Below, piece by piece: positions 13,033 to 39,150 of a stretch of 64,000 nt of DNA; position 1 is the first letter of the stretch, and every line of letters starts with the position of its first letter. Position numbers and translations under genes: made by a program. The stretch spans positions 336,001 through 400,000 of the forward strand of contig CAMXCT020004090.1 of NCBI GenBank assembly GCA_947184155.2, read 5' to 3'. This DNA comes from Cladocopium goreaui (lineage: Eukaryota > Sar > Dinophyceae > Suessiales > Symbiodiniaceae). The notes under the pieces were generated by a model that was not told where the DNA came from, ran no database searches, and saw only the letters and a list, made by a program, of their open reading frames with translations.

Positions 13033-13201
13033 TGTGAAAGACAAAGGTAGGTAGAGACTAGCTTGGTGTGTAGCAGTTGCATGTTTCTTTTGCACTTGCG
13101 CATACTCACCGCAGACTGGACCAGTCAAGCTTAGCGCTAAAAGATTGCCCCGCTGCTTTTGCTTTTTCGTGTGAGCCCATTAGCTGCCTTTGCACTCCGC
13201 A
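13033..13201 (+). repeat. 5' LTR of element 1 (169 bp)
   Basis: Begins TG, ends CA, and is identical over its whole length to 22682-22850. Transcription should start inside it. No TATA-like box is obvious, which is usual for dinoflagellates. Confidence 0.97.
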
Positions 13202-13202
13202 T

Positions 13203-13214: not shown

Positions 13215-13220
13215 TGGGTG

Positions 13221-16200
13221 ATGCTTTCGAAGCCCCAGCGACCAATGGCATCGGCGGAGCCGAAGCGGTCAGCGACCGCGCGAAGGGCAGCGCCCAAGAG
13301 TGAGGCCGAGCCTCGAGGGAAGGAGAAGCTCTCCACCAGCCCTGCTGCGAAGATGGGTGCCGATGCACTACCGCATGGCCGAGGACCTGGTTCTATATGC
13401 TCGGAGCCTGTAGGCGCCGCGAAGAACACCAAGGCCGCTGAGAGAGGCTATCCGGTTGGGATGACAATGCCTGGATTCCAGTTGCACTATGGCCCCAATG
13501 GACAGCCTTGGTACACCGACGGGAAGCAATGGTGGCCGGTGTGCTACAATCCCATGATGGCTTCCCAACAGTGGTCAACGCCGTTCTCTTCCTGGACTAT
13601 GCCGAGCCAGCAAACGCCCAGTCAACAAACGGCGGTCAATCCGAAGGAGTTAGACTTGAAAGGAGTCAAGCAGAATGCAACGAGAACTCGAGTGAAGACA
13701 GAAACCAAGGAGGAGAAAACTACGAAAGGAGACAAGAAGGACAAATCCTCCAAAGAGAAGGATAAGGGTGACCGCGGAGAGAAGAAGAAGAAGCCGGACA
13801 AAGGCCCACCAGAAGATGTCCCCGATTGGGGAGGTGACGATGAGGGTGATGAGCCAGATCCGGAGGATGACACGGAGTACACTTATGAAGAAGAGAGCGA
13901 GGAAGAGGAGGAGCATGAACCAGACCAATCGGTCGATGTGACGCCGCGGTCAGCGACCGGAGTGACGCCTCGCTCAGGCACAGGAGGCGAGCCCCGAGAA
14001 GGTCCGCGACCTGGGCGGCGACCTGCGGAGCGTGACACGCATCACACGGGCAGCGGCCCACGGAGGCGGAGACCTCCAGGTGGCGGCGGCCCACCTTCGA
14101 TGCCATCCAGAGGATCGCAAGCCTCTTCCAGCCACAGGACATCGTCCGTCAGAACAGAGTCGGTACGACAGCTGCTCAAGGAGCGTACCGACCAGCCTGA
14201 AGGACGAGCTCGTGCTAACCTTGGACAAGTCCGGCTGGAGACCTTCTCAGGTGACAGGTCTCAATACAGGAACTGGATGAAGACGATCCAAGCTCAGAAG
14301 CAGCTCTACCAGATCCAAGACAAGGAGCTGGCGGTCTTGCTGTTCCTGTCCTGCACCGGGGAGGCAAGAGAGGTTCTCAACCAACTGGAGATAGCGGACA
14401 TGCAAGAGGAGGGCGGCCTTCAACGCATCCTACGTCTCTTAGAGGATGCGTATGGGAGCAAAGCAGATGAGAGATTCGAGGAAAGACAAAATGCTTTCCT
14501 GAGTTTCCGCCGCTCTCCCGGACAAAGCATCGCTGCTTACTTAGCGACCCTGAAGAGACTCCGAAATGAGTACTTGCGTGAAGACCCGGGGTCAGTAATC
14601 AGCGACCGTGCATTTGCCCAAAGAATGCTGACCCGTGCTTCCTTGACACGGCGCGAACGGTACGACTGCTTTTTTGCAGCCGGCGGTTCTTACCGTTCAG
14701 GTCCCTTGGAGAAAGTCCTCAGGTTCCGGTGCGCGAACGTGCACCTTGAGGAAAGACCAAGCGGCGGCCGCCGCCAAGAGGAACGTGGCTATCAACAGGT
14801 TGCTCGGCCGCCGCCGAAGAGGAGAACCTACAAAAGGTCCGATCGTCGAGCCCCGTATCGTGCCACTCGCCATGCTCATGTGGCCGATGAAGAAGACCTT
14901 GAAGGGGACTATGAAGAGCACTATGGAGACAACACGGATGACGAGGACCTGGAGCAAGAAGCACTGATGGCAGAGGAGGAGATGCCCGAAGAAGAGGAGT
15001 GGAGCCATGACGAAGAGGCCGAGTATGAGGAAAGCGTCGAGGCCGTGGACCAGGCTGCCTTGCAAGAGGCATTCGCTGCTGGTTGGAGGGCCAAGAACCA
15101 GACGGCCCAAGCCCGGCAGAGCCGTGGCTACCGTGACAGTGGCAAATCCCCAAAAGGGAAAGGAAAAGTGAAGCGACAAGACAGTCGCCGGCCTGACGAT
15201 CGGAAACGCAACAGCACGTGCGCCTCATGTGGCCAAAAGGGACATTGGAGAGGCGATGCAATCTGCCCCAATGTGAAGTCAGGCAAGGACGCTCCACATC
15301 GGAAGGAAAGTGCAACCCATTATACAACAGCATCGGGTGCTGGGAAGGGCAGCGCCTTCCAACCCAAGCGGGACCGCGCCCCCTCTCCGGCCAGAGAACC
15401 GGAGCGAGCACCGCTGCCGCGGAGGAAGAGCTCAGAGAGCCAAGCAAGAGACCAAGCTGGCGATGTAACGGGCGCTACGCCCAAACATCCCCCGATGGCA
15501 CCTCCACCAAATCCTCCTCGACGAGGAGCGGTAGACAAGTCACCGATGGAGACCTATGTGGAGCCACCATCAACCCCAAGGGGGCATGAAAGACCACCAG
15601 AGCCAGCAGTGCCACCTCGAGTCAAAGAAGAAGTCGGTCGATCTCCTAGCAGAAAGGAACCTGAGAGAGAACCCAAGGCGTCTCCGGAGGAGAAGGCCAA
15701 GAAGAGGAGAAGACGCTCACATCGATCAGACAGACCGAGAAGGTCCTCAGGTGAGCACAGGTCTGACAGAGATCGCACCCGTGAGCGAAAGTCACGGGAG
15801 GAAGGTGCAGAGACACCTGCTGACACGCCTCGTGAAGGGACAGAAGAGGCCTTTGTGGCACAGCCTTCAACTGGCACTGCAGCACGCCAGTGCAACTGGA
15901 CATACATGGTTGGTGGCTGGGACGTGATCAAGGACTATGATTCTGACAGTTCCGACACGATCTCATCTCACCAGTTGGCAACCGAAAGTGAAGAGGACGA
16001 TTTGGTCCGCAAGTACCAGTTGCAAAATTCCCCAGCCCCCAAGTCAGCCGCTAGGGAGAAGCTTAAGGTCAAGCTGATGACGGTCTTGAGATCTTTGGCT
16101 GAAGAGGAGCAAGACGATGAGGTCAAGAGACGACTTCAACGGAAACAAGATCGCCTTCGAGACAAGATCTCAGCACGGGCCGTGCGATCTCAAGCCTCGG

Positions 16201-19200
16201 GCTCGGAAGCTCCGGCCAAAACAAGGCCCAAACATGAAACCCGAGATCCCAAGTTGGACGAGGAAATGTGTTTGTCCACCCAGGATCTGCTGCAGATCTT
16301 ACCAAATATGTCCAAGGAGGAGAAGAAATTGCTCTATAAGCAACTCAAGAAGGAACGAGAAGATGAAGCCCTCAAGCTCTTTGGAACGGGGCAGCCGCCC
16401 ACCTCAGCAGCAAAGCTCAAGAGGCCAGATCGCCGCCGAGACGGGTACTCGGCTGCGTCCGTACCCATGGCCTCTGCGGGCCGCAGCCTGAGGAAGGATG
16501 AGGTTGAGGAGCCACCGGATCAAGAGGAGAAGGTACCGGTGGGAGTCAAGAAGAAGCGCATGGAGAAGTTTCGCAGACAGCTCTACGAGGCGGCCAAGAA
16601 CCGAAAAGGGAAGATCGTACCGTCAGAAGCCGCAGATCTTCCCAACGTTGCCCAGGAGAACTGCGAGCATCCATATGAGCGTTTGCTCTGGGGTGCAAAT
16701 ATCCATGCCCATTGGGCAAGCTGCAAGGATTGCAAGCTGAGAAAAGTCTTGTACTACTCAGCTATGCATGGTGCAATGACGTCCAACCAGTGCATCCATG
16801 CCCATGACCATGAACATGAGGCCTACCAGGCCAATGTGCTGTCCCCTGGACATGTCATTCTTGACACTGGGTGCAGAACAGCAGTGGCTGGACGCAAGTG
16901 GCACATGACCCTGCAGTCTTTGATGCGCCAGAAAGGCCTTCCGTTCTACAAGACCAACCACGAGGAGGTCTATCGCTTTGGAGCAGGTGCACCGGTGCTC
17001 AGCACTGAGGCGTTCCTCTATGCAGTGCAGATCTATGATCACAAGTCTTGGGTGCGCATCGCAGTGGTTGACAACACACCGGATGATGGCCGTGTGGCAG
17101 AGTGTCCTGGACTTGTGGGACCTGCTGAACTTGCCCGTTGGAAGGTGCAGATTGACTTCGCCAAGTTGCAGGTTGCAATTCATGGCAAATGGCAACCCAC
17201 AGTTTTGTCGCCTTCAAGGCATCCAATCCTCAATCTGCTCAACGTCGGCAAGAAGCCTGATCCAACAGCATGGGAGACCGGGGAGCTCAAGGAGCTGAGG
17301 CTGCGCCTCACAAACGACCCGCATTCCTTTGCCCTCTTGCAGGAGGCATTGGATGATCTGAGCTCTGATGACGGCAGCGCCGCAGAGCCAGACCCAACTA
17401 CGAAAGAAGCCGTCCATTGGACGGGACCCCAATTCGAGACGATGGCCCGCTGGCAGAAGAAATCCGAGTCAGAGACCATCAACCTGCTGGATGTGCTGGG
17501 TGTGGACTGCTTTCGAGCCACAACCAAGGAACCGGATGACAGTTCCACGGGTTCCATCAGCGAACGCGAAAGTGAGACTTCTCACGAAGGTGGACTTCCG
17601 ATGGGTTTCAACAGTTCTGATGAAGAATCCACGGAATCGGAAGATGGCATGGTTGATGAAGTGATGATAGCTGGCAGCGCCGGCGACACTGAGTACCTTG
17701 GAAAAGGGCAGAAGCGAAGACTTTTGGCCGCCGCCAAGAACATCAGTGAAGCTGTGGAGGTGGAGCGCACCAGTTTCAAGAAGGAGAAGGAGGTTCCAAG
17801 AGTGCGCCGGCTGCGTACTGGCTTCAAGATCTTGGAGATCTTTACGTGGTCCTGCATGCTGTCAAGGTTTGCCTACGGCCTGGGCTGGGAGTATCTTGAA
17901 CCAGTGACCCTTCCAGGCTGGGATCTGACAGACCCCAAGGTGCAATGGGAGGCCCACCAGTACATTGATCGAGTCGACCCTGACTTCATCATGCTGGCAT
18001 GGCCGTGTGGACCGTGGTCGCCTCTGCAGCGACTTAATCAAAAGACTTGGACCCAGCGAGAGGCCCTCAAACACAAACAGAACACCTCGAAGAAGTTGCT
18101 GAAGTTTTCTGCACAAGTCTCTTTGAAGAGACAATGGAATGGCCGCGCCATCCTGGGTGAGAATCCCCTGCTGAGCCTGGCATGGAAGCAAGATGATATC
18201 ATTGATGGCTTTGGTGATCTGCCTGAAGGGGTATGCGACCAGTGTCAGTATGGCCTCCGCCATCCCGAATGCGGCATGCCTCTGAAGAAACCAACCCGCT
18301 TTGTGGGCCAAGAGGAGATCGTGGCTGAGCTCAGGAAAAGATGCCCTGGGGATCACCAACATTTCTCCATTGAAGGTTCAGTCCGGACGGAGGAGTACGG
18401 GACTATATCTCTGTCATCCTGGGCTGGAGGATATCCGATCCCCTTGTGCAAAGCCATCATGAGGGGAGCCTTGAGCTTCCTGCATCGGCCGGCAGCTGCC
18501 GGGAAAGAGACCTACGTCCTGGAGGAGTACGTCACCGAAGAATCTTTTCAGGATGGGCAAGAAGGAATTGAAGAAGAAGAGCAACGAATGGCACAGGAGA
18601 AAAGGCGAGAGGAAGAGGTGATCGAGGAAGATGATCGACGCCCTGTGCCAAAAGAGATTCAAAAGGCAGTTGAATTTGCCCATCGGCAACTTGGACATCC
18701 CAGCAGAGATACTTTGGTCCGGATGCTGCGCATCTCAGGAGCGACAGAGGATGCCATCCGTCACGCTAGACGATGGCAGTGCGATGTGTGCCGAATGCAG
18801 AAGGCACCAGCACATCCTCTTGCTACAACGCCAAGCTTGAGACCCTATGGCTTCAATCGGAAGCTTCACTTGGACATCAAGTTTGTGTTCGACTCACGGG
18901 ATCGCAAATATCCTTGTTTGAGCATTGTGGATCTTGGTACTGCGTACCATGGCGCCTGTCTTTGCAAGACAAGGAGGTCCGACTATGTGGCGCGCAAGTT
19001 CATGATCCATTGGATCCAGATCTTTGGAGCTCCAGAGCATGTTAGCCACGATCAAGGTGGCGAGTTTGAGCTGGCCTTCACCTCGCTTTTGGAGGACATG
19101 GCGGTGCCAACTACGGTGACAGGATCACATGCACCTTGGCAGCTTTCGGTGGGAGAAAGACATGGAGCTATCTTGGGCACCATGATCTCAGCTATCACTG

Positions 19201-22200
19201 CAGAACACTCCACTGAAGGATTTACAGCCATGAAACTGGTGGTGTCATCCGCTGTCGCAGCCAAGAATATGACAGTGACTCGGGACGGATTCACTCCCAA
19301 TCAACGATTGTTTGGAGCTGAAATCAAATTCCCCAGTTTGACAGAAGACAACGCCAGGCCAAGCTTTGCAGAAGCATTGGACTCTGAATCAGAGTATGCA
19401 CGCGCTCACAGAATGCGCATCACGGCCAGGCTGGCTTTGATCCGTACGGACGTCCAAGACAAGATGCGCCGTGCGATTCTGAGGAAGCCAGTGCATGAAA
19501 ATGATGGCCCATTCATGCCGGGAGCACAGATTTACTTCTGGACACCAAAGAAACTTTCAAAAAGGTATACCCGAGGTGGCCAGTGGCGTGGACCTGCTAC
19601 AATCCTTGTGCGTGAGGCCAAGGAGAGATACTTTGTCAGCTGGCGAGGCCGCGCCCTCCTGTTGGCTGCGCCCAACATCCGACTGGCTACTCGTGAAGAG
19701 TTAGCTCTCAACAAGCCAGCCAAGGAAGATGCCGACAGTTTGGGTGAACTACTTCGGGACCCCATCCGGGAGAAGACCTACAAGGACCAATCACGACTGG
19801 CACCTCCGCCGAGGACGAGAAAACGTCCAGCGACCGCGGATACGCCAGAGAGGAAAAGAGCAAGGACGATGTTAAGAGGCACCAAGTCAATTCGACAGCT
19901 CCTGAAGGATCGCTACGCTGATCTTCGAGCACAGCTCAGGAAGAGAAAGGTGCCCAAAGGTATTGAGGACAAGCCGGCAGCGCCGCGCCCTGCAAAAAGG
20001 CCAAAGGCCTTAGAAGATGGACAAGTGCCCCCAGAGGAGATCCCTGAACTACCTCAACCACCGGCACTACCAGGACCTGGAGGAGGCGAAGAGTCTGATG
20101 GCTACAGCGCCACATCACCTTATGATGAGCATGAAGGGCCTCCCCAAATGTCAACCGATGAGGAGCCACCTCACATTCCTACAGATGATGAAGGACTGGA
20201 TGAGCCATCCAGAGCTGAGGCAGAGCCTCCAACGGAGGTACCACCGCATGAGGTACCTGTCCCGCCGGACAATGAGGACGAATGGTTAGAGGAGTTCAGG
20301 AAACTGTCCGAGGAAGATCGACGCAAGATGTCTCTTGACGACGTTCCTCACACCCTCAAGAGGAAACAGCAGCTTATGGACCCTGCTCGGGCGGATGCTG
20401 CCGTCAAGAAGCTGCGTGCGAACTTCTGCGCACAGGTGGCAGCGACCACAGTGTATGTGAGCCTTCAAAATGAATGGGTGTCGAGATACGAGGTGGAACT
20501 TCTTAAGCAACTGACAGGCTTGCCAGTTACGGCGGCCAGAATCCACCGGACACCCAGGAAGCGTTTCCAAAAGCCTCCAAAGATGGTTAGTCGCTCACGA
20601 CTTTCCATTTTAATTGGCAAAGATCCTGCCAACACCTTCATTGTCAACGAGGACGAGGAGGACGTGAAGCAGAACCCTCGCCGTCGTGCCAGCTTTCTTT
20701 GGAAAGGCATGACGATTTTCTACAAGACTGCCAAGGAGACCGACACCGAGCCGGTATACATCCAGCTTCCAGATGGATTGTACCGTGCGGATCTGACTGC
20801 CCAAGCCGCCCAAGATTTCGAAGCTTTGTGGACGGAAGAAGTTCGAGATTTGCTCACCACTGAAGCGCTGCTATTGAAGATGAAGCAGGGTGGCAAGGAG
20901 TTGGACCCTGCCTTCTTTGATCAGAAGGAAAGAGCAGCATTTGATACGGCTGATGTCAAGGAGTGGTCTGAATGGATCAAAAACGGAGTGATTGAGAGGG
21001 TCAGCCCTGAGGAAGCGGCCCGAGTTCCCAAAGCATCCATTTTCAGAGCACCACTTCATATGCTCAGGGTCAACAAACAGACCAATCAGCTCTTGCCGTT
21101 GGTGGCAAAATCCCGACTTATTGTGCCAGGTCATTTAGACCCCCAGCTTGGTGAATTCCGGACAGATTCGCCAACCTGCCCTCAAGCAGCTGTCTGTGCA
21201 GCCAAGAGCGTGGCAGCAGCCCGTGGATGGGGTGGCACAATTTTTGATGTCACAACAGCTTTCCTCAGCGGAAAGAAGTTGCAACGACAGGTTTACATTC
21301 GAGCCCCCAGAGAAGGTTTGCCTCCAGCTGAGAATTGGTCAGCTGTGGAACCTGGAGAGCTCTTGCGCATCCTCAAGAGCGCATATGGACTGACAGAGAG
21401 TCCCAGGTTGTGGTACCTGGAAGCCCTTGACAGGATCAAAAAGACTGATCTCCAGGAGCTCGAGATGTCGCGATCTACCTTCGTTGCAGGTGGTGGAAGC
21501 AGTGGCAGCGCCACATATGCTATCCTATGTCTCCACGTGGATGACGGACTGCTTCTCGGTGATTTACAGGACAAGCGTGTCCAGAATCTCAAGCGGCAGA
21601 TTGATGGTATGTTCAAGATCAAAGCCTGGAAGACCCTATCTGCCAAAGAACCAGTTCAATTCTTGGGCGTGGACGTAACTTTGGATTCAAATGGTATCCA
21701 CGACGACATGACGCAGTACATCAAGCAGATCAAGGTGGAACCTTTGAGTGGCTCTGGACCACTTAATCCAAGGGAGTTGACGCTCTATCGTCAGCTCGTC
21801 ATGCGCCTTCGGTGGCCGGCCCAACAGGCCATGCCACACTTGCTGTATGAGGTTTCGGCCCTAGCACAACGTGTGAGCCGCGCTCAACACAGTGACTACA
21901 AGGAAGCTGTCAAGCTTCATCAAAAGTTTGTGGAGGAAGCTTCCCAGGGCCGCGCCCAATTGACCTATCCAAAGCTGAACGAGAAGGAGAAGCTATTCTA
22001 CATCAGCTTCTTTGATGCCTCGGTTGGAAAAGAAGAAGACGGAAAATCTCAGCTTGGGTCAATTCACTTTCTCACAACAGAGAAAGCACGGTCAGGACCA
22101 GCATTGGCATCGGTGGTGGAATTCTCCACCAATAAAAGTTCTCGAGTTCTGAGGAGTTCAATGTCTGCTGAAAGCTGTAGCATGTCCATCTGTGTGGACC

Positions 22201-22703
22201 GTCACTTGTACGGCCGCTTGGTTTTGGATCGTTTGCTCTACGGCAACAGACCCTTGGATGAGGATTGGCGATTGTCAATGGGTCTTGATGGAGGCGTCGT
22301 AACTGATGCCAAGAGCCTCTATGACCATTTGAATACAACAGGTCAGCTCCCCACGGAGCGTCAGACCATGCTGGACTTGCTTGTTGCACGACATCACTTG
22401 GAAGCTGGAGCGTATATGTTGTTTTGGGTCCCTACTCATCGACAGCACGCCGACGGCCTAACCAAGAAGATGGTCAACCTGTTGTGGCAGGCATTCTGCC
22501 GAAAGCCTATGGTGTCCCTACGTGAGACTCCAGAGGAGAAAACGTTAGAGGATCACCGGCGCAAACTGCGCCAGGGGCAGCGACAGCGTCGCAAAGAAAA
22601 GCTGAAGGGCCGCGTCCCAGCACTGGCATCGGCTGCGCCGTGCCATAATTTGCGCAACACACCAACACGTTTCCCTTCCGATGTGAAAGACAAAGGTAGG
22701 TAG
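13221..22703 (+). CDS. Gag-Pol polyprotein of element 1 with embedded methyltransferase-like domain
   Basis: One uninterrupted 3160-aa frame starts at ATG 13221, just after the primer site. Gag-like helical region at about 348-502. CCHC-like knuckle at 667-682 with an unusual CX2CX4HX6C spacing. Aspartic protease DTG at 1215. Methyltransferase-like domain at about 1533-1756 (ILEIF, then PCGPWS with C1596, then GENP with E1647). Integrase with H1821, H1826, C1854, C1857 and the D1885, D1944, E1979 triad. Reverse transcriptase with D2676 (FDVTTAF) and HVDDG at 2774-2775. RNase H D2932, E2984, D3029 and D3078. Linkers are acidic or Arg/Ser-rich. No frameshift separates gag and pol, so stoichiometry must be set another way. 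The last seven codons and the TAG lie inside the 3' LTR. Confidence 0.96.
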   Translation: MLSKPQRPMASAEPKRSATARRAAPKSEAEPRGKEKLSTSPAAKMGADALPHGRGPGSICSEPVGAAKNTKAAERGYPVGMTMPGFQLHYGPNGQPWYTDGKQWWPVCYNPMMASQQWSTPFSSWTMPSQQTPSQQTAVNPKELDLKGVKQNATRTRVKTETKEEKTTKGDKKDKSSKEKDKGDRGEKKKKPDKGPPEDVPDWGGDDEGDEPDPEDDTEYTYEEESEEEEEHEPDQSVDVTPRSATGVTPRSGTGGEPREGPRPGRRPAERDTHHTGSGPRRRRPPGGGGPPSMPSRGSQASSSHRTSSVRTESVRQLLKERTDQPEGRARANLGQVRLETFSGDRSQYRNWMKTIQAQKQLYQIQDKELAVLLFLSCTGEAREVLNQLEIADMQEEGGLQRILRLLEDAYGSKADERFEERQNAFLSFRRSPGQSIAAYLATLKRLRNEYLREDPGSVISDRAFAQRMLTRASLTRRERYDCFFAAGGSYRSGPLEKVLRFRCANVHLEERPSGGRRQEERGYQQVARPPPKRRTYKRSDRRAPYRATRHAHVADEEDLEGDYEEHYGDNTDDEDLEQEALMAEEEMPEEEEWSHDEEAEYEESVEAVDQAALQEAFAAGWRAKNQTAQARQSRGYRDSGKSPKGKGKVKRQDSRRPDDRKRNSTCASCGQKGHWRGDAICPNVKSGKDAPHRKESATHYTTASGAGKGSAFQPKRDRAPSPAREPERAPLPRRKSSESQARDQAGDVTGATPKHPPMAPPPNPPRRGAVDKSPMETYVEPPSTPRGHERPPEPAVPPRVKEEVGRSPSRKEPEREPKASPEEKAKKRRRRSHRSDRPRRSSGEHRSDRDRTRERKSREEGAETPADTPREGTEEAFVAQPSTGTAARQCNWTYMVGGWDVIKDYDSDSSDTISSHQLATESEEDDLVRKYQLQNSPAPKSAAREKLKVKLMTVLRSLAEEEQDDEVKRRLQRKQDRLRDKISARAVRSQASGSEAPAKTRPKHETRDPKLDEEMCLSTQDLLQILPNMSKEEKKLLYKQLKKEREDEALKLFGTGQPPTSAAKLKRPDRRRDGYSAASVPMASAGRSLRKDEVEEPPDQEEKVPVGVKKKRMEKFRRQLYEAAKNRKGKIVPSEAADLPNVAQENCEHPYERLLWGANIHAHWASCKDCKLRKVLYYSAMHGAMTSNQCIHAHDHEHEAYQANVLSPGHVILDTGCRTAVAGRKWHMTLQSLMRQKGLPFYKTNHEEVYRFGAGAPVLSTEAFLYAVQIYDHKSWVRIAVVDNTPDDGRVAECPGLVGPAELARWKVQIDFAKLQVAIHGKWQPTVLSPSRHPILNLLNVGKKPDPTAWETGELKELRLRLTNDPHSFALLQEALDDLSSDDGSAAEPDPTTKEAVHWTGPQFETMARWQKKSESETINLLDVLGVDCFRATTKEPDDSSTGSISERESETSHEGGLPMGFNSSDEESTESEDGMVDEVMIAGSAGDTEYLGKGQKRRLLAAAKNISEAVEVERTSFKKEKEVPRVRRLRTGFKILEIFTWSCMLSRFAYGLGWEYLEPVTLPGWDLTDPKVQWEAHQYIDRVDPDFIMLAWPCGPWSPLQRLNQKTWTQREALKHKQNTSKKLLKFSAQVSLKRQWNGRAILGENPLLSLAWKQDDIIDGFGDLPEGVCDQCQYGLRHPECGMPLKKPTRFVGQEEIVAELRKRCPGDHQHFSIEGSVRTEEYGTISLSSWAGGYPIPLCKAIMRGALSFLHRPAAAGKETYVLEEYVTEESFQDGQEGIEEEEQRMAQEKRREEEVIEEDDRRPVPKEIQKAVEFAHRQLGHPSRDTLVRMLRISGATEDAIRHARRWQCDVCRMQKAPAHPLATTPSLRPYGFNRKLHLDIKFVFDSRDRKYPCLSIVDLGTAYHGACLCKTRRSDYVARKFMIHWIQIFGAPEHVSHDQGGEFELAFTSLLEDMAVPTTVTGSHAPWQLSVGERHGAILGTMISAITAEHSTEGFTAMKLVVSSAVAAKNMTVTRDGFTPNQRLFGAEIKFPSLTEDNARPSFAEALDSESEYARAHRMRITARLALIRTDVQDKMRRAILRKPVHENDGPFMPGAQIYFWTPKKLSKRYTRGGQWRGPATILVREAKERYFVSWRGRALLLAAPNIRLATREELALNKPAKEDADSLGELLRDPIREKTYKDQSRLAPPPRTRKRPATADTPERKRARTMLRGTKSIRQLLKDRYADLRAQLRKRKVPKGIEDKPAAPRPAKRPKALEDGQVPPEEIPELPQPPALPGPGGGEESDGYSATSPYDEHEGPPQMSTDEEPPHIPTDDEGLDEPSRAEAEPPTEVPPHEVPVPPDNEDEWLEEFRKLSEEDRRKMSLDDVPHTLKRKQQLMDPARADAAVKKLRANFCAQVAATTVYVSLQNEWVSRYEVELLKQLTGLPVTAARIHRTPRKRFQKPPKMVSRSRLSILIGKDPANTFIVNEDEEDVKQNPRRRASFLWKGMTIFYKTAKETDTEPVYIQLPDGLYRADLTAQAAQDFEALWTEEVRDLLTTEALLLKMKQGGKELDPAFFDQKERAAFDTADVKEWSEWIKNGVIERVSPEEAARVPKASIFRAPLHMLRVNKQTNQLLPLVAKSRLIVPGHLDPQLGEFRTDSPTCPQAAVCAAKSVAAARGWGGTIFDVTTAFLSGKKLQRQVYIRAPREGLPPAENWSAVEPGELLRILKSAYGLTESPRLWYLEALDRIKKTDLQELEMSRSTFVAGGGSSGSATYAILCLHVDDGLLLGDLQDKRVQNLKRQIDGMFKIKAWKTLSAKEPVQFLGVDVTLDSNGIHDDMTQYIKQIKVEPLSGSGPLNPRELTLYRQLVMRLRWPAQQAMPHLLYEVSALAQRVSRAQHSDYKEAVKLHQKFVEEASQGRAQLTYPKLNEKEKLFYISFFDASVGKEEDGKSQLGSIHFLTTEKARSGPALASVVEFSTNKSSRVLRSSMSAESCSMSICVDRHLYGRLVLDRLLYGNRPLDEDWRLSMGLDGGVVTDAKSLYDHLNTTGQLPTERQTMLDLLVARHHLEAGAYMLFWVPTHRQHADGLTKKMVNLLWQAFCRKPMVSLRETPEEKTLEDHRRKLRQGQRQRRKEKLKGRVPALASAAPCHNLRNTPTRFPSDVKDKGR

Positions 22704-22850
22704 AGACTAGCTTGGTGTGTAGCAGTTGCATGTTTCTTTTGCACTTGCGCATACTCACCGCAGACTGGACCAGTCAAGCTTAGCGCTAAAAGATTGCCCC
22801 GCTGCTTTTGCTTTTTCGTGTGAGCCCATTAGCTGCCTTTGCACTCCGCA
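22682..22850 (+). repeat. 3' LTR of element 1 (169 bp)
   Basis: Identical to 13033-13201, and followed at once by the target duplication GTTGG. The bases just upstream (TTTCCCTTCCGA) are pyrimidine-rich, not the expected purine tract. Confidence 0.97.
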
Positions 22851-27162: not shown

Positions 27163-27499
27163 TGTGAGTTTCGTAACTTGCTGCTGCCGCATACACCTTC
27201 GATTGTTTCCTGTCAGGGGAAAGCACATTCATTATGTGCCTTTTGACTCGTGGCTCAAGGCCAATTTCAGCGAGATAGGGGAAAAATCTCGAGTGCCGCC
27301 ATAGGATTGGTTGGAAGGTGAAGAGTGGACTCTTTTGGGATTTGGTTGGATAGATATACATTTTTGGTGTTGTGGACAACACTGTTGGAACGACTTTACT
27401 TTGGTTGAACATCAACTACTTTCTGGTGATCAAGGAGGACCTTGAACCATTCAGGTGGGAACTGTTATCAGTGGAGTTGTGATCTACGATCCAACGACA
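27163..27499 (+). repeat. 5' LTR of element 2 (about 337 bp, end inferred)
   Basis: Matches 34994-35310 up to 27478 (GTGGAGTT). The next 21 bp end CCAACGACA, after which one base precedes the primer site, as in element 1. I therefore put the true LTR end at 27499 (TG...CA) and regard the 3' copy as shortened. An LTR of 27163-27478 with a 22-base gap before the primer site is the alternative. Confidence 0.8.
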
Positions 27500-27578: not shown

Positions 27579-28784
27579 ATGCCTCCTAAAGAGTCTGCCT
27601 CAACCGATGGGAACGGTGACTCCCAGCAGGGTTCCAATTTTTGGAATTTGCTGCCCAGTTTTGACCCGAGTGAAGATGACATACGAGAGTTTTCACAGAA
27701 AGCCAGGTTCATCCACGGTGTCATGCCCGAGAAGGACAAGCCCAACTGAGCTCCCAGGTTAGCTATGTTGTGTAAAGGGACAGCTTGGTCCCAGGTGCGT
27801 CAGTTAGATCCGAAGAAGCTCACCAAGGCCGACTCAGGTGTTGAATACTTGTTGGCCGCTTTGTCAGCTTGGGAAGAAACATCAGAGATGAAAACGTATG
27901 AACTGTTTGAACGAGCACTCTACAAGGTAGTACAGAAGTCTGATGAGGCCTCCCATAGTTTCTCACTTCGCCTTCAAGCTGCATTCAATGAGATAGGTGA
28001 TGATGCCACTGTCAAACAAATGCAAGCCTTCGTGATGTTGAGACAGTCAGGTTTGTCGTCCGAAGACAAAAAGAAAATCCTGACGATGACAGTTGGTAAG
28101 CTGGATCTGACCGCAGCCGCAGTTGACCAAGCCATGAGGTCGTTGTCCACACGTGTGTTGATGGGTCCTGGTGAAGCCAAGAAAAAGATTTACCCGATCA
28201 ATTTCTCAGAGGTGGAAGAGCCACCTACCCAATCCGATGAAAGCCTTCCGGTTCAAAGCACTTACGTTGCATACCATGAGGAAGAGGATGTTTTGACAAC
28301 CGAGCATCTGGAATACCTAGTGTCTCAGGGAGATGAGGATGCCAACGTAGTGCAACAGTTTGAGCGTGATTTCGAAGAGATGCTGCAAGAAATTCCTGAC
28401 ATGCAACAAGCAATGGTCTCATACAATGAGGCTAGGCAGAGGATCAATGATCGCCGTCGCAGCCGAGGGTTTTGGCCCACTGGAAAAGGAAAAGGGAAAG
28501 GTGGGTTCAAAGATGGCTCCCGGCCATACCGCAAAGGTGTTGGAAAGTCTGGAAAAGAAGAGTTGTTGGCTCGCATTGCAAAAACGCATTGCAAGCTCTG
28601 CGGCGCCCTTGGTCATTGGCGCGCAGAATGCCCTCAGAGGAAAGAAGCCCGTGAAACTGCCAACGTTGCCTTCTCCATGCCTTCCGAAGCATCCGATGCC
28701 GAAAGTGCACCCGTTGTGAAACATGTTTCGTTGCCTCATGCTACCGAAAACCAGTTTTCTGCGAGCAAAATGTTGAAGACGTGA
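27579..28784 (+). pseudogene. Gag of element 2, interrupted by an in-frame TGA
   Basis: ATG at 27579 opens a frame that reads PSFDPSEDDIREFSQKARF and then meets TGA at 27747-27749 (codon 57). The same frame continues without a gap (APRLAMLCKGTAWSQVR) for 344 more codons to TGA 28782-28784. It has a helical capsid-like region and a canonical CX2CX4HX4C knuckle (C338, C341, H346, C351). An ATG at 27765 could give an N-terminally short Gag. TGA may come from CGA by C-to-T change; readthrough cannot be excluded. Confidence 0.85.
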
Positions 28785-28941
28785 AAGCCTTTTGGGGTAA
28801 GAAACTGAATAAGCCGGGTTATAAGCGGGGTAATAAAGGGGTAATTGGGGATAAAGGGGTAGCCAAAAAAACAGTGGTCCAGAAAACAGCCTGAACCCAG
28901 CAGTGGTGACCTCAGCACCCAACACCCGTGCCGTCAGGAAG

Positions 28942-31900
28942 ATGCATCCGAGACCAACCAATAGAGCCGATGGTTTTGTCAGCCAGAATCACTCAGATGC
29001 CATGCAAAGTCAAGGAATGGCCATACTGGACACAGGTGCCAGTCGCAGTGTGATCGGACAAGACCATGTCCCCGCGATGCTCCAAAAACTGCCAGCCAGT
29101 GTCCGTGACCAAGTCGTGGAGAAACCCAGCAGAGTAGGTTTCCGTTTTGGAAATAACCAAGTTGCATATAGCTACAAGCAGTTACGCATACCATTGGTCC
29201 ACAAGGGAATCGGAATTTGGTTGCTAATTGAAGTAGTGCCGAAAGCCACACCTTTCCTGCTGTCAATTAAGACCATGAAGAGTTTAGGAGCTATGATAGA
29301 CCTAGGGCAAAACACATGTTTTCTCAAGACGTTGCAAAGGTCATTGTATTGGAAAGAAAACAAGAATGGGTTGTTCATGATTGACATGTCCGATCTTTGT
29401 CAACCTGATGTCAAGTCCAATGCAGCAGCTTTTGTCGCATCAAGTGTCTGTGCCCCGCCTCCAGGTCTGGAAAGTGAAATTCCTGCCAGTCAGGCCGACC
29501 CGTCAGGAAGTGCTCGATGCTCTTCGCACAGTGGCAGAGGAAGTGTTAGCCAGTCTGAAGCTCCTGATGACCATCGTGTTCACCATGACCAGTGCGATCG
29601 ATCCGAACCAAGAAGCCACGGAGCTCCAGATGAACCCTGTGAATCAGTTGATTCACGAAGTGGCCCAGCAACGTCGGACGATCGACCAGTTGGGGAATCT
29701 GATTCAAGCTCAGTTCCAACAGAAGCCACCCACATGTCCAGGACCTATAGTGAGCCCTGTGAACCACGTTCCAGGATCAGAAGATTTCGAATGGGAAGCC
29801 GAGATGGTGCCGTCACAAGGCCAAGCGGCATCAACGGTGCCAAATTCTTCCCAATCGATGCCTGCTGTGATGATGAATGTCAGAGCTCCCAACAATCAGC
29901 CTCCTCCAATGCCAGTGAGACAGCCCATGCCGCACGTGTCAATGACACCAAGTGCCCGACCGCCAGCTGCAATGATGGGAAGCCCAGGATCGTCTTACGC
30001 AGCTTCCGAGATTGGAAGCCAATTGATGGTGACTCAAGCATCCCTCGAAAGCTGGGGAAACAAGATCGTGGGCTTTGGCAAAAAGCACCTGAGGTCTCGT
30101 TACGCCCATGTGTACGAGTCCGACCCAGGTTACATCAAGTGGATCTTGGCCAGAGCCGACAACCTTTCCGAGGATGTGGCGGATTTCGCAAGCTATGCCC
30201 GAGCTCGCAATCAACTGGAGCAATTGGCCAACAACCCGGTTCCATGAGAGGCATTTGGGAGGGATTTCAAGATTCTAGGATGTCACATAAATCTAGTTTT
30301 AAAGAAAGACAATTGTGGACTGAGATGCAACAGTCAGAATGTGGAAAGAGCTTTCACAAGTCAGAACAGTTGGACATCCTAGAAGTGTATGCGTTCCCTA
30401 ACAGCATGTTGACCACTGTGGCACAAGAACATGGTTTGCGAGCAAGGAGGTTTACATATGAAGATGGGGATTTATCGACATCTACTGGAAGAAGAGCTTT
30501 GTTTCACATCATCAAGACACAGAGACCAAAACATATTTGGCTTGCCCCGGAATGTGGTCCTTGGTGTGCCTGGAACCGCTTTAATTCCATGCGAAGCCTT
30601 TCTGGTTATGAACAAGTCATGCACCAACAGCGTCTTGCCAAAGAACACTTGGTATTGTGTAATGTGGTAGCTCAGATTCAGCATGATGAGGGTCGACACA
30701 CCCATCTCGAAAGCCCCAAAACCTCCGGCGTTTGGAAGCAGCAGGAGATACAGCCGTTTTTGAAGCGTTCCATTCCGGCCCAGCTGGACCAATGTGCTTT
30801 TGGCCTGAGACATCCAAGTGAAAATCAGTTGATGAGAAAATCCACTCGCATACAAACCACCTCAGTTGAAATGTTTTCTGTTTTGGACTGCCGTGTTTGC
30901 AATCGTGAACATAGTCATAGTACCATAGCAGGAAGATGTCAGTGGAAGGGCCATAGCATTTCCGTGTCCAGGTTTGCTGCTTTCTATCCACGCAAGCTTG
31001 CGCTGACCATTGTCCGTGGAATCATGCAAACATCCCAAGGCCCCTATGAGGCGCCAATTTGCCATGTAGATGAAATAGAGCCGCCTGCCAAAAGGGCACG
31101 TACCAACTCTGGTGAAGCCTCTGCACCACACGACACCACGAACGTGTGGAAACCAATGTTTGAATTTCTACAGAGAAAACTTCCCAAATCAGGTGTTGTC
31201 ACTTGGGAAGACCCGCAAGATGAAGTCTTCCAGGAAATTCAGAAACTGTTTCCACATGAGAACATTGGTGCAGTCAAAGCAGGAAAAGGCCTAGATCGTC
31301 TTTTGTTGGGCGAAGAGGCTTGGAGAGATCAGCTGCCGAAAAGACATAGCATAGTACAGAAAAGATTCACTCATGAAATAATTGACCTAGGACTTGAAGT
31401 TTGGAGTGAATTAACTCGGAAAAGGGCTTGTCGAAAAGAGGTGCCAAGCCATATCATGTTGTGTTTGTTTTCCAGAGATGACAGCCGACCTGATACACCT
31501 ATAATGCCAGCAGCCGATCCCGCCAATGGATCAATTGAGACAAAAGCCGCTGAATCAACAGCCAGTCCACCAGTGCAGGTAGATGTGCCCAGCTGGACTC
31601 CTTTAAGTGCCACTGTTTCAGGCCCAAATTTCCTGAAACTTACTCGAGAGCAACAGTCCATGTTGCGCAAGATTCATAATAATCTAGGACACCCCACAGC
31701 CGAAAGACTGGCCCGACATCTAAAGGAATCCAAAGCACATGAACACCTGGTGGAAGGTGCTGCCGACTTTGTGTGTCCGTCATGCGCTGAGAGACACCCA
31801 CCACAAAAGACTACTCCCGGCCAACTCAAAGACCCGAAGGATTTTAATGAAAGAATTCTTTTGGATGGTTTTGACTGGTGTAGTCAAAGGGGTATTCAAA

Positions 31901-34900
31901 TCTATGTGTTCCATATCCTAGATGATGCTACCCGTTTCCATTTAGGTCAAAGGATAACCCGGGATACCCAAGCCTCCATCCGTACAACGAAAGAGATGTG
32001 GATTCAATGGGCAGGATCCCCACAGGAAATACTACATGATCAAGGTGGAGAGTTTGTATCCCAGCCATGGAAAGATTTTTTGCAAGCCCACAGCATTCAG
32101 CCAGTGCTCAGTGCCGCTCCGTGGCAACTTGGTCGTGTCGAGAGACATGGAGGTGTGATCAAGGAAATGCTTGAAAGAATGGACCATGCACAGAACTTCA
32201 CCAGTCTAGCTGAAATAGATGAGGCTCTTAACCAGTGTTTCCGAGCGAAAAATTCTATGATAGTGAATAACGGATATAGTCCAGAACAAGCTGTACTAGG
32301 TAAGGCCTCTAAACTTCCTGGGTCACTACTCTCAGACGAAGAATCAACTGCTCATCACATGTGCCTTTCACCCGACCCAGCATCCGAGCAGTTTAAGCGA
32401 AGTCTTGAATTGCGGACAGCCGCAAGAGCAGCTTTCTGGCATGCTGACAATCATGCTGCAATTCGCAGAGCAGCCCTTCATAGGTCACGAGGTGTGATAC
32501 ATGAATGGCTGTGTGGACAGTTGTGCATGTTTTGGGATAAACGAAAAGCCCCGAACATATTGGAGAAAGGACGATGGTGTGGTCCAGCACAGGTAGTTTG
32601 CCAGGAATCAAGAACAATCATATGGATCACTCACATGAATCGGTTGTTAAGATGTGCCCATGAAAATCTCAGACCAGTTTCCATGCGTGAATTTCAAAGA
32701 CACTCCACTTTTACAACTTCAAATGCCCAAGAAGAATTGAAACAAATGGCACAACGTTTACAGACACAGTTGAAAGAAAAGAGTGGCATGTTTCAATACT
32801 CCGATTTATCTGAGGTGAATCCTCCAACAGAAGAAGAGGCAAACGATGGCAATAGCGAACTTTCGACCTCTCGACAACCAGAGGAAGAACCAATCAGACG
32901 CCAACGAGGTGAGATCGAAATTCCTGACGAAACCATGCACGACCCTGCGGTCGAAACGCCTCTTCCAGACTCCCCGTTTTCTTCCAATAGCGAAGAAAGC
33001 CCTGAATCAATGGTTCCAAGCCCGAGCCTGGCACAATCTGCTCCTGACACTGCATCATTGGACACAGATCAGTCGGAAAATGAAACTCCGAGTAACATGG
33101 AACCTGTGTATAATGCTGTTATCATCGAGAAGAATACCGAGACGACAGACTGTGTTCATGACGATGGCGCTCTTTGGTCAATGCCCGACCCTTGCGAAGC
33201 AGCATGTGTGTCTTTTGAGTTTGAAATGCCAAAACAACAATTCCATAAGTTCCTCAAATCTCCCAAAGAGCACCTGCCAGAGGTCAATGCCGCAGCCCGC
33301 AAGTTTGGGAAAGAACTTGTTTACAGTGACTTGACACCCCAAGAGAGAGAGAGGTTCAAGCAAGCCAAGTTGAAGGAATTGAATTGTTGGTTGGATACTC
33401 AAACGGTAAGAACCATAGTTCGGGATAAAATTCACCCCTCCAGAGTTTTAGCCTCTAGATGGATACTGACTTGGAAGGAAGATGAAAATAGCGAAGATGG
33501 AAAGAAACCAAAAGCACGACTTGTGGTAAAAGGTTTTCAGGACCCCGACATTGGGGAATTAGCATCCGATAGTCCCACTCTCACCCGAGATGGTAGGATG
33601 TTATTACTCCAGACAGCTGCCAGCCACAAATGGTGTATTGAAAGCTTTGATATCACTACTGCCTTTCTACGAGGGAAATCCGATGATCGTCAACTAGCTA
33701 TGGAACCCCCAAAGGAGTTGAGAGAACTGCTTGGAATGGAAAAACATCAGATCTGCCTACTAGAAGGAAATGCTTATGGACGGGTAGATGCCCCTTTGTT
33801 ATTCTATCGCGAATTTCGGAAATGCTTAGAAGAAGTAGGTTTCACCGCACATCCCTTGGACAATTGTTTGTACTTGTTAAGAGACCCCAAAGATCCAAAG
33901 ATCCTCAATGGGATAGTGGGTACTCATGTGGATGACGGTTTGGGGGCAGGTAACCACAAATTTAGCTATGCCCTACAACAACTTCAGAAAAAGCTTCCTT
34001 TCGGCTCACATGAAAAACGCAAATTCCGTTTCACAGGACTTGAAATAGAACAGTTGCCGGATTTTTCTATCAAAGTTAGCCAAGAAAAATATGTCCAAAG
34101 AATAACTCCCATAGACATCCCTAAACTCCGTAGAGCAGAAGTTGATAGCCCTATCACTCCACAGGAGTTAAATAAACTAAGGGGGATTTGCGGGAGCCTA
34201 CAATACGCCGCAGTGCATTCCCGGCCCGATGTGGCCGCAAAAGTTGCGCACCTGCAGAAGGGTATTACCAAGGCGACCGTGCAAACTCTGCTAGATGCAA
34301 ATCGAGTACTCAAAGAAACCCAAGAGTTTGCCAACACCTCTGTGATCGTACGTCCGATCCCCATGACGGAGCTCTGTTTCGCAAGCTTTGGTGATGCAAG
34401 CTTCGCTTCGGCCAAGCAGATGTCAGCCCAGCAAGGGATTTTTATCATGGCATGCACACGGAAACTAGCAAACAATGAGACGACAGACTTCTCTCCAGTT
34501 GCATGGCATACCAAACAGATTGGTAGGGTGGTTCGTTCTACTTTGAGTGCCGAAGCATACGCTATGTCCAGTTCACTAGATAAGTTAACGTGGATTAGAT
34601 GCATGTGGGGTTACATAAAGGATCCCTCTTTTGCTTGGCATAAACCTGAAAAGTCTCTTTGTGTAGAACCACCAGGGTTAATGATCACTGATTGTAAATC
34701 CTTATATGACTTAGTCACGAAGACTGCAGTGCCAAATTGCCAGGAGTGGCGTGCCACCATAGAAGTCATGTTGCTGAAGGAACAATCAGCTAACCATACC
34801 CAATGCCGCTGGATCAGCACTGCTATCATGTTGGCAGACTGCCTAACGAAGTCCATGGACTCAACTTTCTTACGCACCGTTTTGCAGTTGGGAAGATTCA

Positions 34901-34998
34901 GAATCTACGATGAAGAAGTGACCCTCAAACAGAACTCGAATCGAAAATATGGTGTCACATGGGTGAAACAATCGAACATAGAAAAGAGACCAGTGTGA
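28942..34998 (+). CDS. Pol of element 2: protease, methyltransferase-like domain, integrase, RT, RNase H
   Basis: The frame is open from 28855 and its first ATG is at 28942 (2018 aa), one frame from gag and 118 bp past its stop. Protease DTGAS at residue 30. Low-complexity Ser/Arg/Asp segment at about 170-430, which overlaps another ORF. Methyltransferase-like domain at about 475-698 (ILEVYAF, PECGPW with C538, LESP with E590, DQCAFGL, CNREHSH). Integrase H912, H917, C945, C948 and D975, D1033, E1067. RT D1570 (FDITTAFLRG) and HVDDG 1664-1665. RNase H D1818, E1871, D1917, D1966. The TGA stop occupies bases 3-5 of the 3' LTR. AGAAAAGAGACCAG just upstream is a fair polypurine tract. How pol is started is unclear: reinitiation, frameshift or splicing. 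Confidence 0.95.
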   Translation: MHPRPTNRADGFVSQNHSDAMQSQGMAILDTGASRSVIGQDHVPAMLQKLPASVRDQVVEKPSRVGFRFGNNQVAYSYKQLRIPLVHKGIGIWLLIEVVPKATPFLLSIKTMKSLGAMIDLGQNTCFLKTLQRSLYWKENKNGLFMIDMSDLCQPDVKSNAAAFVASSVCAPPPGLESEIPASQADPSGSARCSSHSGRGSVSQSEAPDDHRVHHDQCDRSEPRSHGAPDEPCESVDSRSGPATSDDRPVGESDSSSVPTEATHMSRTYSEPCEPRSRIRRFRMGSRDGAVTRPSGINGAKFFPIDACCDDECQSSQQSASSNASETAHAARVNDTKCPTASCNDGKPRIVLRSFRDWKPIDGDSSIPRKLGKQDRGLWQKAPEVSLRPCVRVRPRLHQVDLGQSRQPFRGCGGFRKLCPSSQSTGAIGQQPGSMRGIWEGFQDSRMSHKSSFKERQLWTEMQQSECGKSFHKSEQLDILEVYAFPNSMLTTVAQEHGLRARRFTYEDGDLSTSTGRRALFHIIKTQRPKHIWLAPECGPWCAWNRFNSMRSLSGYEQVMHQQRLAKEHLVLCNVVAQIQHDEGRHTHLESPKTSGVWKQQEIQPFLKRSIPAQLDQCAFGLRHPSENQLMRKSTRIQTTSVEMFSVLDCRVCNREHSHSTIAGRCQWKGHSISVSRFAAFYPRKLALTIVRGIMQTSQGPYEAPICHVDEIEPPAKRARTNSGEASAPHDTTNVWKPMFEFLQRKLPKSGVVTWEDPQDEVFQEIQKLFPHENIGAVKAGKGLDRLLLGEEAWRDQLPKRHSIVQKRFTHEIIDLGLEVWSELTRKRACRKEVPSHIMLCLFSRDDSRPDTPIMPAADPANGSIETKAAESTASPPVQVDVPSWTPLSATVSGPNFLKLTREQQSMLRKIHNNLGHPTAERLARHLKESKAHEHLVEGAADFVCPSCAERHPPQKTTPGQLKDPKDFNERILLDGFDWCSQRGIQIYVFHILDDATRFHLGQRITRDTQASIRTTKEMWIQWAGSPQEILHDQGGEFVSQPWKDFLQAHSIQPVLSAAPWQLGRVERHGGVIKEMLERMDHAQNFTSLAEIDEALNQCFRAKNSMIVNNGYSPEQAVLGKASKLPGSLLSDEESTAHHMCLSPDPASEQFKRSLELRTAARAAFWHADNHAAIRRAALHRSRGVIHEWLCGQLCMFWDKRKAPNILEKGRWCGPAQVVCQESRTIIWITHMNRLLRCAHENLRPVSMREFQRHSTFTTSNAQEELKQMAQRLQTQLKEKSGMFQYSDLSEVNPPTEEEANDGNSELSTSRQPEEEPIRRQRGEIEIPDETMHDPAVETPLPDSPFSSNSEESPESMVPSPSLAQSAPDTASLDTDQSENETPSNMEPVYNAVIIEKNTETTDCVHDDGALWSMPDPCEAACVSFEFEMPKQQFHKFLKSPKEHLPEVNAAARKFGKELVYSDLTPQERERFKQAKLKELNCWLDTQTVRTIVRDKIHPSRVLASRWILTWKEDENSEDGKKPKARLVVKGFQDPDIGELASDSPTLTRDGRMLLLQTAASHKWCIESFDITTAFLRGKSDDRQLAMEPPKELRELLGMEKHQICLLEGNAYGRVDAPLLFYREFRKCLEEVGFTAHPLDNCLYLLRDPKDPKILNGIVGTHVDDGLGAGNHKFSYALQQLQKKLPFGSHEKRKFRFTGLEIEQLPDFSIKVSQEKYVQRITPIDIPKLRRAEVDSPITPQELNKLRGICGSLQYAAVHSRPDVAAKVAHLQKGITKATVQTLLDANRVLKETQEFANTSVIVRPIPMTELCFASFGDASFASAKQMSAQQGIFIMACTRKLANNETTDFSPVAWHTKQIGRVVRSTLSAEAYAMSSSLDKLTWIRCMWGYIKDPSFAWHKPEKSLCVEPPGLMITDCKSLYDLVTKTAVPNCQEWRATIEVMLLKEQSANHTQCRWISTAIMLADCLTKSMDSTFLRTVLQLGRFRIYDEEVTLKQNSNRKYGVTWVKQSNIEKRPV
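29381..30247 (+). CDS. ORF overlapping pol of element 2 in the +1 frame
   Basis: It is 288 codons wholly inside pol, between protease and the methyltransferase-like domain. From about 29480 it reads like real protein: a helical stretch (EVLDALRTVAEEVLASLKLL), another (QLIHEVAQQRRTIDQL), a Pro/Met-rich linker, then a compact segment (FGKKHLRSRYAHVYESDPGY and IKWILARADNL). The pol frame over the same bases is Ser/Arg/Asp/Gly-rich and shows no fold. The usual start is uncertain (TTG at 29381, ATG at 29408). It may be a separate protein, or be joined to pol by shifts. Element 3 has a similar overlap at the same relative place and frame. Confidence 0.6.
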   Translation: MTCPIFVNLMSSPMQQLLSHQVSVPRLQVWKVKFLPVRPTRQEVLDALRTVAEEVLASLKLLMTIVFTMTSAIDPNQEATELQMNPVNQLIHEVAQQRRTIDQLGNLIQAQFQQKPPTCPGPIVSPVNHVPGSEDFEWEAEMVPSQGQAASTVPNSSQSMPAVMMNVRAPNNQPPPMPVRQPMPHVSMTPSARPPAAMMGSPGSSYAASEIGSQLMVTQASLESWGNKIVGFGKKHLRSRYAHVYESDPGYIKWILARADNLSEDVADFASYARARNQLEQLANNPVP

Positions 34999-35310
34999 GT
35001 TTCGTAACTTGCTGCTGCCGCATACACCTTCGATTGTTTCCTGTCAGGGGAAAGCACATTCATTATGTGCCTTTTGACTCGTGGCTCAAGGCCAATTTCA
35101 GCGAGATAGGGGAAAAATCTCGAGTGCCGCCATAGGATTGGTTGGAAGGTGAAGAGTGGACTCTTTTCGGGATTTGGTTGGATAGATATACATTTTTGGT
35201 GTTGTGGACAACACTGTTGGAACGACTTTACTTTGGTTGAACATCAACTACTTTCTGGTGATCAAGGAGGACCTTGAACCAGTCAGGTGGGAACTGTTAT
35301 CAGTGGAGTT
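34994..35310 (+). repeat. 3' LTR of element 2 (317 bp, probably short of its last 21 bp)
   Basis: Matches the 5' LTR apart from CTTTTCGGG versus CTTTTGGG and GAACCAGTC versus GAACCATTC. It stops after GTGGAGTT, where the 5' copy continues for 21 bp to a CA end. ATATA follows. Confidence 0.9.
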
Positions 35311-36854: not shown

Positions 36855-37016
36855 TGTAAAGATTCACCATTGTGTTCCAATGTATCAATTGACCAAGGAT
36901 GAACATGTGAAACTGCCTTCTCGCCACCGCCGTGGCTCAAGGCCGAGAACCAAGGACGCTTGCGATGCCATGCGAGAAAACAGTCTCTTTGGCTTGGATC
37001 ACCCGGTGCATCAACA
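36855..37016 (+). repeat. 5' LTR of element 3 (162 bp)
   Basis: Begins TG, ends CA, identical to 45748-45909. Contains CGTGGCTCAAGGCC at 36931-36944, a 14-mer also present in the LTR of element 2. Confidence 0.97.
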
Positions 37017-37030: not shown

Positions 37031-37102
37031 ACTGAGAGATGGACCTGGACACCCTGGATGAGGACATAGGGGATCCAGTTGGAGAGACTAGAGCCGCAGG
37101 TG

Positions 37103-39142: not shown

Positions 39143-39150
39143 GAAAAGAA

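Follow-up and report, generated by a model that had tools for sequence, protein, structure and literature searches.

The stretch analysed here, called the window below, comprises 64,000 nucleotides of a Cladocopium goreaui contig and holds three complete Copia insertions, all in the same orientation (Table 1). Long terminal repeats (LTRs) bounded by target-site duplications (TSDs), together with the protease–integrase–reverse transcriptase (RT) order and RVT_2 matches, place them in the Ty1/copia class. They share the LTRs with a 5-bp TSD and the protease–integrase–RVT_2 order with canonical Ty1/copia elements (Pseudoviridae), from which an additional ∼230-aa domain, inserted between protease and integrase, sets them apart. 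In elements 1 and 2 a protease-like DTG motif is followed by this domain and then by an integrase HHCC-like motif, and in element 3 a DTGA motif sits in the ORF upstream of the Pol ORF; we take DTG to mark the protease and HHCC the integrase. Each has the appearance of a recent insertion and carries the extra domain within an open Pol frame.

The joining of Gag and Pol differs among these neighbouring relatives: element 1 has a single frame, element 2 has different frames with a gap (27765-28903), and the two frames of element 3 overlap by 4 bases (39139-39142). In elements 1 and 3 the 5′ LTR is directly followed by TTGGTAGCGGAGC (13202-13220 and 37017-37035), which is presumably similar to TGGTATCAGAGC, the Met-tRNA primer site in plant Copia; element 2 differs at this place.

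Table 1. Features of the three Copia elements, in window coordinates
Feature	Position	Strand	Remarks
Element 1 5′ LTR	13033..13201	+	169 nt, TG...CA; 100% identical to 22682-22850; TSD GTTGG on both sides
Element 1 Gag-Pol, single open frame	13218..22703	+	3161 aa
Element 1 protease-like motif DTGCR	16863..16877	+	aa 1216
Element 1 C5-methyltransferase-like domain	17817..18500	+	aa 1534-1761, model residues 8-235; AlphaFold, Foldseek, VIA-align, HHalign
Element 1 putative catalytic Cys C1597 (motif IV)	18006..18008	+	conserved column; profile alignment
Element 1 motif-VI Glu E1648 (ENP)	18159..18161	+	conserved column; aligned with phage IENP
Element 1 Cys/His cluster C1676, C1709, H1713, H1715	18243..18362	+	possible metal site (hypothesis)
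Element 1 integrase HHCC-like start HRQLGH	18681..18698	+	aa 1822
Element 1 reverse transcriptase RVT_2	21084..21731	+	E 3.7e-14, aa 2623-2838
Element 1 3′ LTR	22682..22850	+	100% identical to 5′ LTR over 169 nt
Element 2 5′ LTR	27163..27478	+	two blocks; 3′ copies 99% identical; TSD ATATA
Element 2 Gag-like ORF	27765..28784	+	weak zinc-knuckle match, below Pfam cut-off
Element 2 Pol ORF	28903..34998	+	rve, RVT_2 (E 6.5e-18)
Element 2 C5-methyltransferase-like domain	30364..31035	+	Cys 30553-30555, Glu 30709-30711
Element 2 3′ LTR	34994..35310	+	two blocks, 99% identical to 5′ copies
Element 3 5′ LTR	36855..37016	+	162 nt, 100% identical to 45748-45909; TSD TCAAG
Element 3 Gag/protease-like ORF	37079..39142	+	zinc knuckle at cut-off
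Element 3 Pol ORF	39139..45795	+	RVT_2 E 2.4e-7, 31.0 bits (cut-off 31.6)
Element 3 C5-methyltransferase-like domain, approximate ends	41179..41808	+	Cys 41374-41376, Glu 41524-41526; sequence homology
Element 3 3′ LTR	45748..45909	+	100% identical to 5′ LTR

Elsewhere in the window, a 271-aa frame (557-1372, +) gives a borderline match to PF00443, ubiquitin hydrolase (23.8 bits; cut-off 23.9), and an array of ∼80 copies of the 8-nt unit AGAGACAC occupies 1539-2166, probably accounting for the way in which ORFs of the two strands overlap in that stretch. A 545-aa frame (57096-58733, +) consists of helical repeats, which look to us like PPR repeats, and ends in an O-methyltransferase-like part (PF01596 at E 0.0019, short of the cut-off).

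The initial annotation read the extra domain of element 1 as a cytosine-C5-methyltransferase (C5-MTase)-like module built into Pol, from the motifs ILEIF, WPCGPWS, GENP and YPIPLCKAI. The motifs lie where it placed them and the putative catalytic Cys and the Glu are 51 residues apart, as it said; its residue numbers were off by one, the pair being C1597 and E1648. The counterparts that it saw in elements 2 and 3 are indeed homologous: in phmmer searches of a 55-protein set, domain 1 matched element 2 at E 1.4e-18, and element 3 matched domains 2 and 1 at E 3.1e-9 and 9.8e-7. Searches confined to the domain region added 33 and 16 public proteins. Among relatives with species names, the one nearest to the element 1 domain belongs to Cladocopium goreaui (90% identity), and others come from Effrenium voratum, Symbiodinium sp. 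KB8 and Durusdinium trenchii; these names point to a Symbiodiniaceae dinoflagellate as the host. One D. trenchii gene model, P0036 (residues 1441-1511), keeps only both ends of the domain, the middle being deleted or else covered by a predicted intron.

Conservation was counted over 84 rows (3 from the window, 48 public sequences and 33 loci of the same genome), among which element 1 enters twice (P0001 and L012 are the same place) and many are near-copies. Pieces covering fewer than 180 profile positions, the two L037 halves among them, were left out of this count, as was P0036, in which the domain is almost absent, from the 51-row alignment. Despite divergence down to 23–29% identity, the putative catalytic Cys, the motif-VI Glu and the Pro of ENP are each conserved in 82 of 84 rows. 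Further near-invariant positions are C1676 (84/84), G1679 (84/84), K1691 (83/84), T1693 (84/84), C1709 (82/84), H1713 (82/84) and H1715 (84/84). The Cys/His cluster may hypothetically be a metal site, and several of the phage proteins show a counterpart (YCQYG...C.NG..CH).

Motif I, the SAM loop, is altered in the window elements. Its Phe/Tyr is retained in all 84 rows. F-A-G is the reading in M.HhaI and in most phage proteins; elements 1–3 read FTWSC, YAFPNS and FSPPR, lacking the glycine of F/Y-x-G. In the column of the first SAM-loop glycine, 58 of 84 rows have W and five have G. A canonical motif I occurs in L058 (YVGAGR), L061 (YAGAGR) and P0037 (YSGSGN), and L059 is canonical also. By these alignments the family holds both ordinary and remodelled SAM loops, those of the window elements being of the remodelled kind. 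The missing glycine is the main reason why we file the window domains as C5-MTase-like rather than as proven C5-MTases.

AlphaFold models the element 1 domain, which lies ahead of the integrase in Pol, with pLDDT 90.5 and pTM 0.86, and the Foldseek and VIA-align matches of the model include M.HhaI and DNMT3. A SAM-binding Rossmann fold had been required beforehand, and both separately modelled domains are predicted to be of the C5-MTase type: C5-MTases are the top Foldseek matches of each and fill all 50 VIA-align rows shown for each, with Foldseek TM-scores that are low across these matches (0.33–0.43). The catalytic residues, the other point on which the claim had been made to depend, were placed by profile alignment: the Cys coincides with that of the PC motif in phage C5-MTases, and the Glu with that of EN. 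Since the phage profile in turn matches C5-MTases of the PDB (4.4e-5 to 2.6e-4, including M.HhaI and a Dcm-like enzyme whose printed letters nearly equal E. coli Dcm), both residues are anchored, and the correspondence with M.HhaI Cys and Glu is reached through the phage enzymes. DNMT2 and tRNA(cytosine38) methyltransferases are also among these PDB matches. E1561 and D1569 are at most tentative candidates for the motif II/III acids, presumably E40 and D60 in M.HhaI numbering, by an alignment ambiguous by ∼2 residues. The likeness to the catalytic domains of M.HhaI and DNMT3A thus lies in the predicted fold and the Cys/Glu pair; the Copia domain has no target-recognition domain of M.HhaI size, and the window elements lack the motif-I glycine of both enzymes.

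Profile comparison shows homology along the whole domain length to small phage C5-MTases of the phrog_757 type, which share the near-invariant Cys/Glu pair. HHalign of 26 Copia domains against seven phage proteins gave probability 97.5 and E 6.8e-12 over 208 columns, and of 51 domains against eight phage rows 97.2 and 3.1e-11 (a Pseudomonas phage 8P segment is in the 8-row phage alignment and was left out of alignment A3). The score was 78.6, against 17.3 for the best of 50 column shuffles; reversing the alignment gave 12.6, and an alignment of RTs 13.3. Either main Copia subgroup on its own still matched the phage proteins (probabilities 92.5 and 66.9). Alignment A5, of three phage and six Copia domains, has eight invariant columns, among which are those of the Cys and Glu, of the glycine in YG and of both K-x-T residues; phage CM1 is 16–21% identical to the Copia domains in it, and three of its nine members, CM1 among them, match TIGR00675 (dcm) of NCBIfam (best 5.6e-8).

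The phage and archaeal-virus proteins concerned (for example those of Bacillus phages CM1 and BM15, Haloferax tailed virus 1 and an Inoviridae contig) are, like the Copia domains, ∼220 aa long and without a large target-recognition domain. Both have the ENP motif, a C-x-YG ... K-x-T block, the Cys/His cluster and a C-terminal IP..LC, and their Cys-to-Glu spacings agree (52 in CM1, 50–52 in elements 1–3). Unlike the Copia domains, the phage enzymes are stand-alone genes and keep the first motif-I glycine.

Pfam and PHROG gave no methyltransferase match on the window proteins and domains. With PF00145, the three window Pol proteins had no match at E≤1, and so none at the Pfam cut-off, one of 26 domains matched (at 0.12), and L059, L060 and L061 did not match; three phage proteins tested match it at 1.9e-10 to 5.6e-9. 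With PHROG, six of 26 domains matched at E≤1. Here the divergent members P0037 (4.9e-6) and L061 (3e-6) hit phrog_757, annotated ‘DNA methyltransferase’, elements 1–3 matched nothing at E≤5, and L059 and L060 nothing at E≤1. Sequence searches of the PDB with a single domain and with a 26-row profile found no C5-MTase. tblastn of the P0039 and P0037 domains against phages stayed at chance level, the top P0037 matches (E 0.4) being annotated as DNA methyltransferases and so opening the route to the phage family; scans of viral contigs with two domains found no relative. A search for stand-alone relatives with profile A2, in which the best 7998 candidates were scored, gave 30 matches at E≤10 that were all free of Pfam domains, and the seven inspected look like pieces or decayed members of the Copia-domain family.

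The domain is widespread in its own genome (1.17 Gb, 6202 contigs). Searches with domains 1, 2 and 3 scored the best 136 of 3629, 150 of 4201 and 150 of 4923 first-look candidates and returned 136, 150 and 150 places, the weakest at E 1.1e-17, 2.4e-43 and 4.2e-23. By eye, 124 of 136, 147 of 150 and 144 of 150 of the listed matches are free of stops, and 13 places are common to the lists of domains 1 and 2. The domain is therefore present at hundreds of places at least, and we infer thousands. Integrase follows it in 51 of 56 domain-bearing frames and RT in 40 (the others have no RT match in the same frame), and a loosely defined DTG-like pattern lies within 700 aa upstream in 40. Among 12 Copia loci selected by RVT_2, four have the domain and in eight it was not seen, so that Copia as such does not need it; the loci, mostly with long frames, were hand-picked from 40 shortlisted of 150 listed, and 4/12 is therefore no estimate of prevalence. 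The domain was not found in L050-L057 of this genome; for L056, whose frame extends beyond the stretch examined, its absence is only probable.

An unrooted RT tree of 43 rows with long branches separates 35 domain-bearing from eight domain-less elements by one branch (support 92/94, just under the mark for strong support), and is consistent with one gain or one loss of the domain. Domain distances track those of RT (Mantel r 0.937, 34 elements; 2000 permutations gave no higher value). Near-identical P0007, P0009 and P0011 were left out of the tree, and P0039 besides from the Mantel test. The domain is under constraint and is kept in open frames at high copy number. Its dN/dS was 0.040 and 0.042 in two pairs, with 0.041 for the following 311 codons, a thin result since the two pairs share L012, their partners L018 and L020 are near-identical and dS is high (1.2 in the domain, 2.1 downstream). 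None of the other 11 among the 13 pairs computed gave a ratio, ten being saturated at silent sites and one having none.

The initial annotation wondered whether this was the family of retrotransposon cytosine methyltransferases reported in 2018, and the class of element speaks against it. In the accessible text of de Mendoza et al. (PMC5890265), a PF00145 search places DNMTs in SymbioLINE, SymbioDIRS and KnitGypsy, that is, in dinoflagellate LINE and DIRS and charophyte Gypsy elements, and Copia, the most abundant class in Symbiodinium, is said to lack ‘any DNMT domain’. The window elements, with their LTRs, TSDs and RVT_2, belong to none of these three classes. SymbioLINE-Dnmt, SymbioDIRS-Dnmt3 and KnitGypsy-Dnmt3 are likewise C5-MTases within retrotransposons, the first two with dinoflagellate hosts; in DIRS and KnitGypsy the enzyme lies inside Pol, as in Copia, and in SymbioLINE in ORF1. 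By that account the published enzymes are recognised by PF00145, belong to Dnmt3 or orphan lineages, conserve the key residues and are reported to methylate CG (PMC5890265), whereas the Copia domain is PF00145-negative and phage-like, with an altered motif I and a putative activity. A 2025 paper (PMC12344493), as far as its accessible passages go, names DNMT3 in ‘LTR Copia and DIRS’, citing the 2018 work; ‘LTR Copia’ may be a slip, the LTR class with a DNMT in 2018 being Gypsy. Its PF00145 search at E<1e-4 would not see the present domain, which is PF00145-negative. The accessible portions of PMC9998398, PMC11453091, PMC12477816 and PMC3145265 hold nothing like it, and titles, opening parts of abstracts and passages of the open-licence literature yielded no report of a C5-MTase-like domain in Copia.

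The same genome has 125 PF00145 matches, many of them ordinary methyltransferase frames, of which L001-L008 were examined; several places are equal in score, as near-copies would be, which is expected if SymbioLINE or DIRS elements are present. HHalign against four of these loci and part of E. coli Dcm gave probability 3.5 and E 0.012, making a recent loan from enzymes like the tested PF00145 proteins unlikely, as far as such small alignments go.

Many Copia elements here, then, carry a conserved C5-MTase-like domain unseen by the standard family search. That it is C5-MTase-like and homologous to the phage enzymes we regard as close to certain. That short motifs merely resemble each other by chance on an unrelated fold would agree with the empty direct PDB searches and with TM-scores below 0.5, and is nearly excluded by two confident models that both match C5-MTases and by a profile homology far above its shuffled controls. 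It is scarcely less improbable that the domain descends from the SymbioLINE-Dnmt or SymbioDIRS-Dnmt3 lineages: the host group is probably the same and PF00145 matches abound elsewhere in the genome, but the elements are of another class (LTRs, RVT_2, copia order), which according to the accessible 2018 text lacks a DNMT (PMC5890265), and the domain, invisible to PF00145, is far closer to small phage MTases than to the PF00145 proteins of its own genome that were tried. Chance, the published family and a wrong fold were accordingly set aside as readings.

The CpG content bears on what the domain does. The ratio of observed to expected CpG is 0.718, 0.623 and 0.589 in elements 1–3 and 0.607 in the remaining window, its median is 0.671 in 30 domain-bearing loci (element 1 included) and 0.554 in four more, and eight domain-less Copia loci have a median of 0.453. 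A CpG depletion left by self-methylation was thus not seen among these loci, domain-bearing copies being if anything higher than domain-less Copia, which disfavours simple CG self-methylation. This would suit a former C5-MTase that no longer methylates, having lost SAM binding in most lineages, whose fold and Cys/Glu pocket bind nucleic acid or hold integrase or cDNA; so would the absence of the motif-I glycine from 79 of 84 rows, all three window elements included. Such a loss is conceivable and on balance rather unlikely, because binding would not need the nucleophile, and Cys and Glu have each been kept in 82 of 84 rows at 23–29% identity, with canonical glycines persisting in L058, L059, L061 and P0037. 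The undiminished CpG would also fit an RNA C5-methyltransferase, comparable to Dnmt2 (same fold, acting on tRNA), that modifies genomic RNA or primer tRNA in the particle. Retroelement particles hold RNA, and the fold class includes RNA enzymes, which appear as DNMT2 and tRNA(cytosine38) methyltransferases in the phage-profile matches; the closest annotated relatives are, however, DNA methyltransferases of phages by name, and we consider an RNA substrate improbable.

The reading we prefer, and hold to be reasonably probable, is a divergent, compact, phage-type C5-MTase-like domain captured long ago by one dinoflagellate Ty1/copia lineage. The capture would have happened once, the domain having been inherited with Pol since. 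Built like the enzymes that methylate cytosine, the domain may let Copia elements mark their own or host DNA. It would be made as part of Gag-Pol and packed into the particle beside the integrase, a proximity suggesting action in the particle or at integration; there it would bind SAM, form a Cys-C6 adduct and methylate C5 of cytosines in the new cDNA or in DNA of the integration site. In the accessible 2018 text most of the genome is CG-methylated in this host group (PMC5890265), so a self-methylating element would blend in, and the new copy could then resemble the heavily methylated genome around it. Catalytic cytosine methylation somewhere in the family is probable, and for the window's own three domains the chances look about even; members with a glycine motif I (L058, L059, L061 and P0037) are the likeliest to function as ordinary enzymes of this kind.

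A bolder version, which we advance tentatively and think rather doubtful, is that an ancient C5-MTase of phage type, numbering hundreds to thousands of copies, is carried by a large part of Copia and acts during integration. It would supply the methyl marks of new copies and account in part for the near-saturating CG methylation of these genomes, and in some lineages Gly would have given way to Trp in a motif-I SAM loop refashioned for altered chemistry or another cofactor. The graded series from canonical to altered motif I offers a test bed for the fold without its usual SAM loop, and divergent methyltransferases can escape surveys based on PF00145. If a Copia lineage does carry a C5-MTase of separate origin, retrotransposons would have captured this function at least one more time, and on a larger scale, and dinoflagellate hypermethylation would gain another candidate source.
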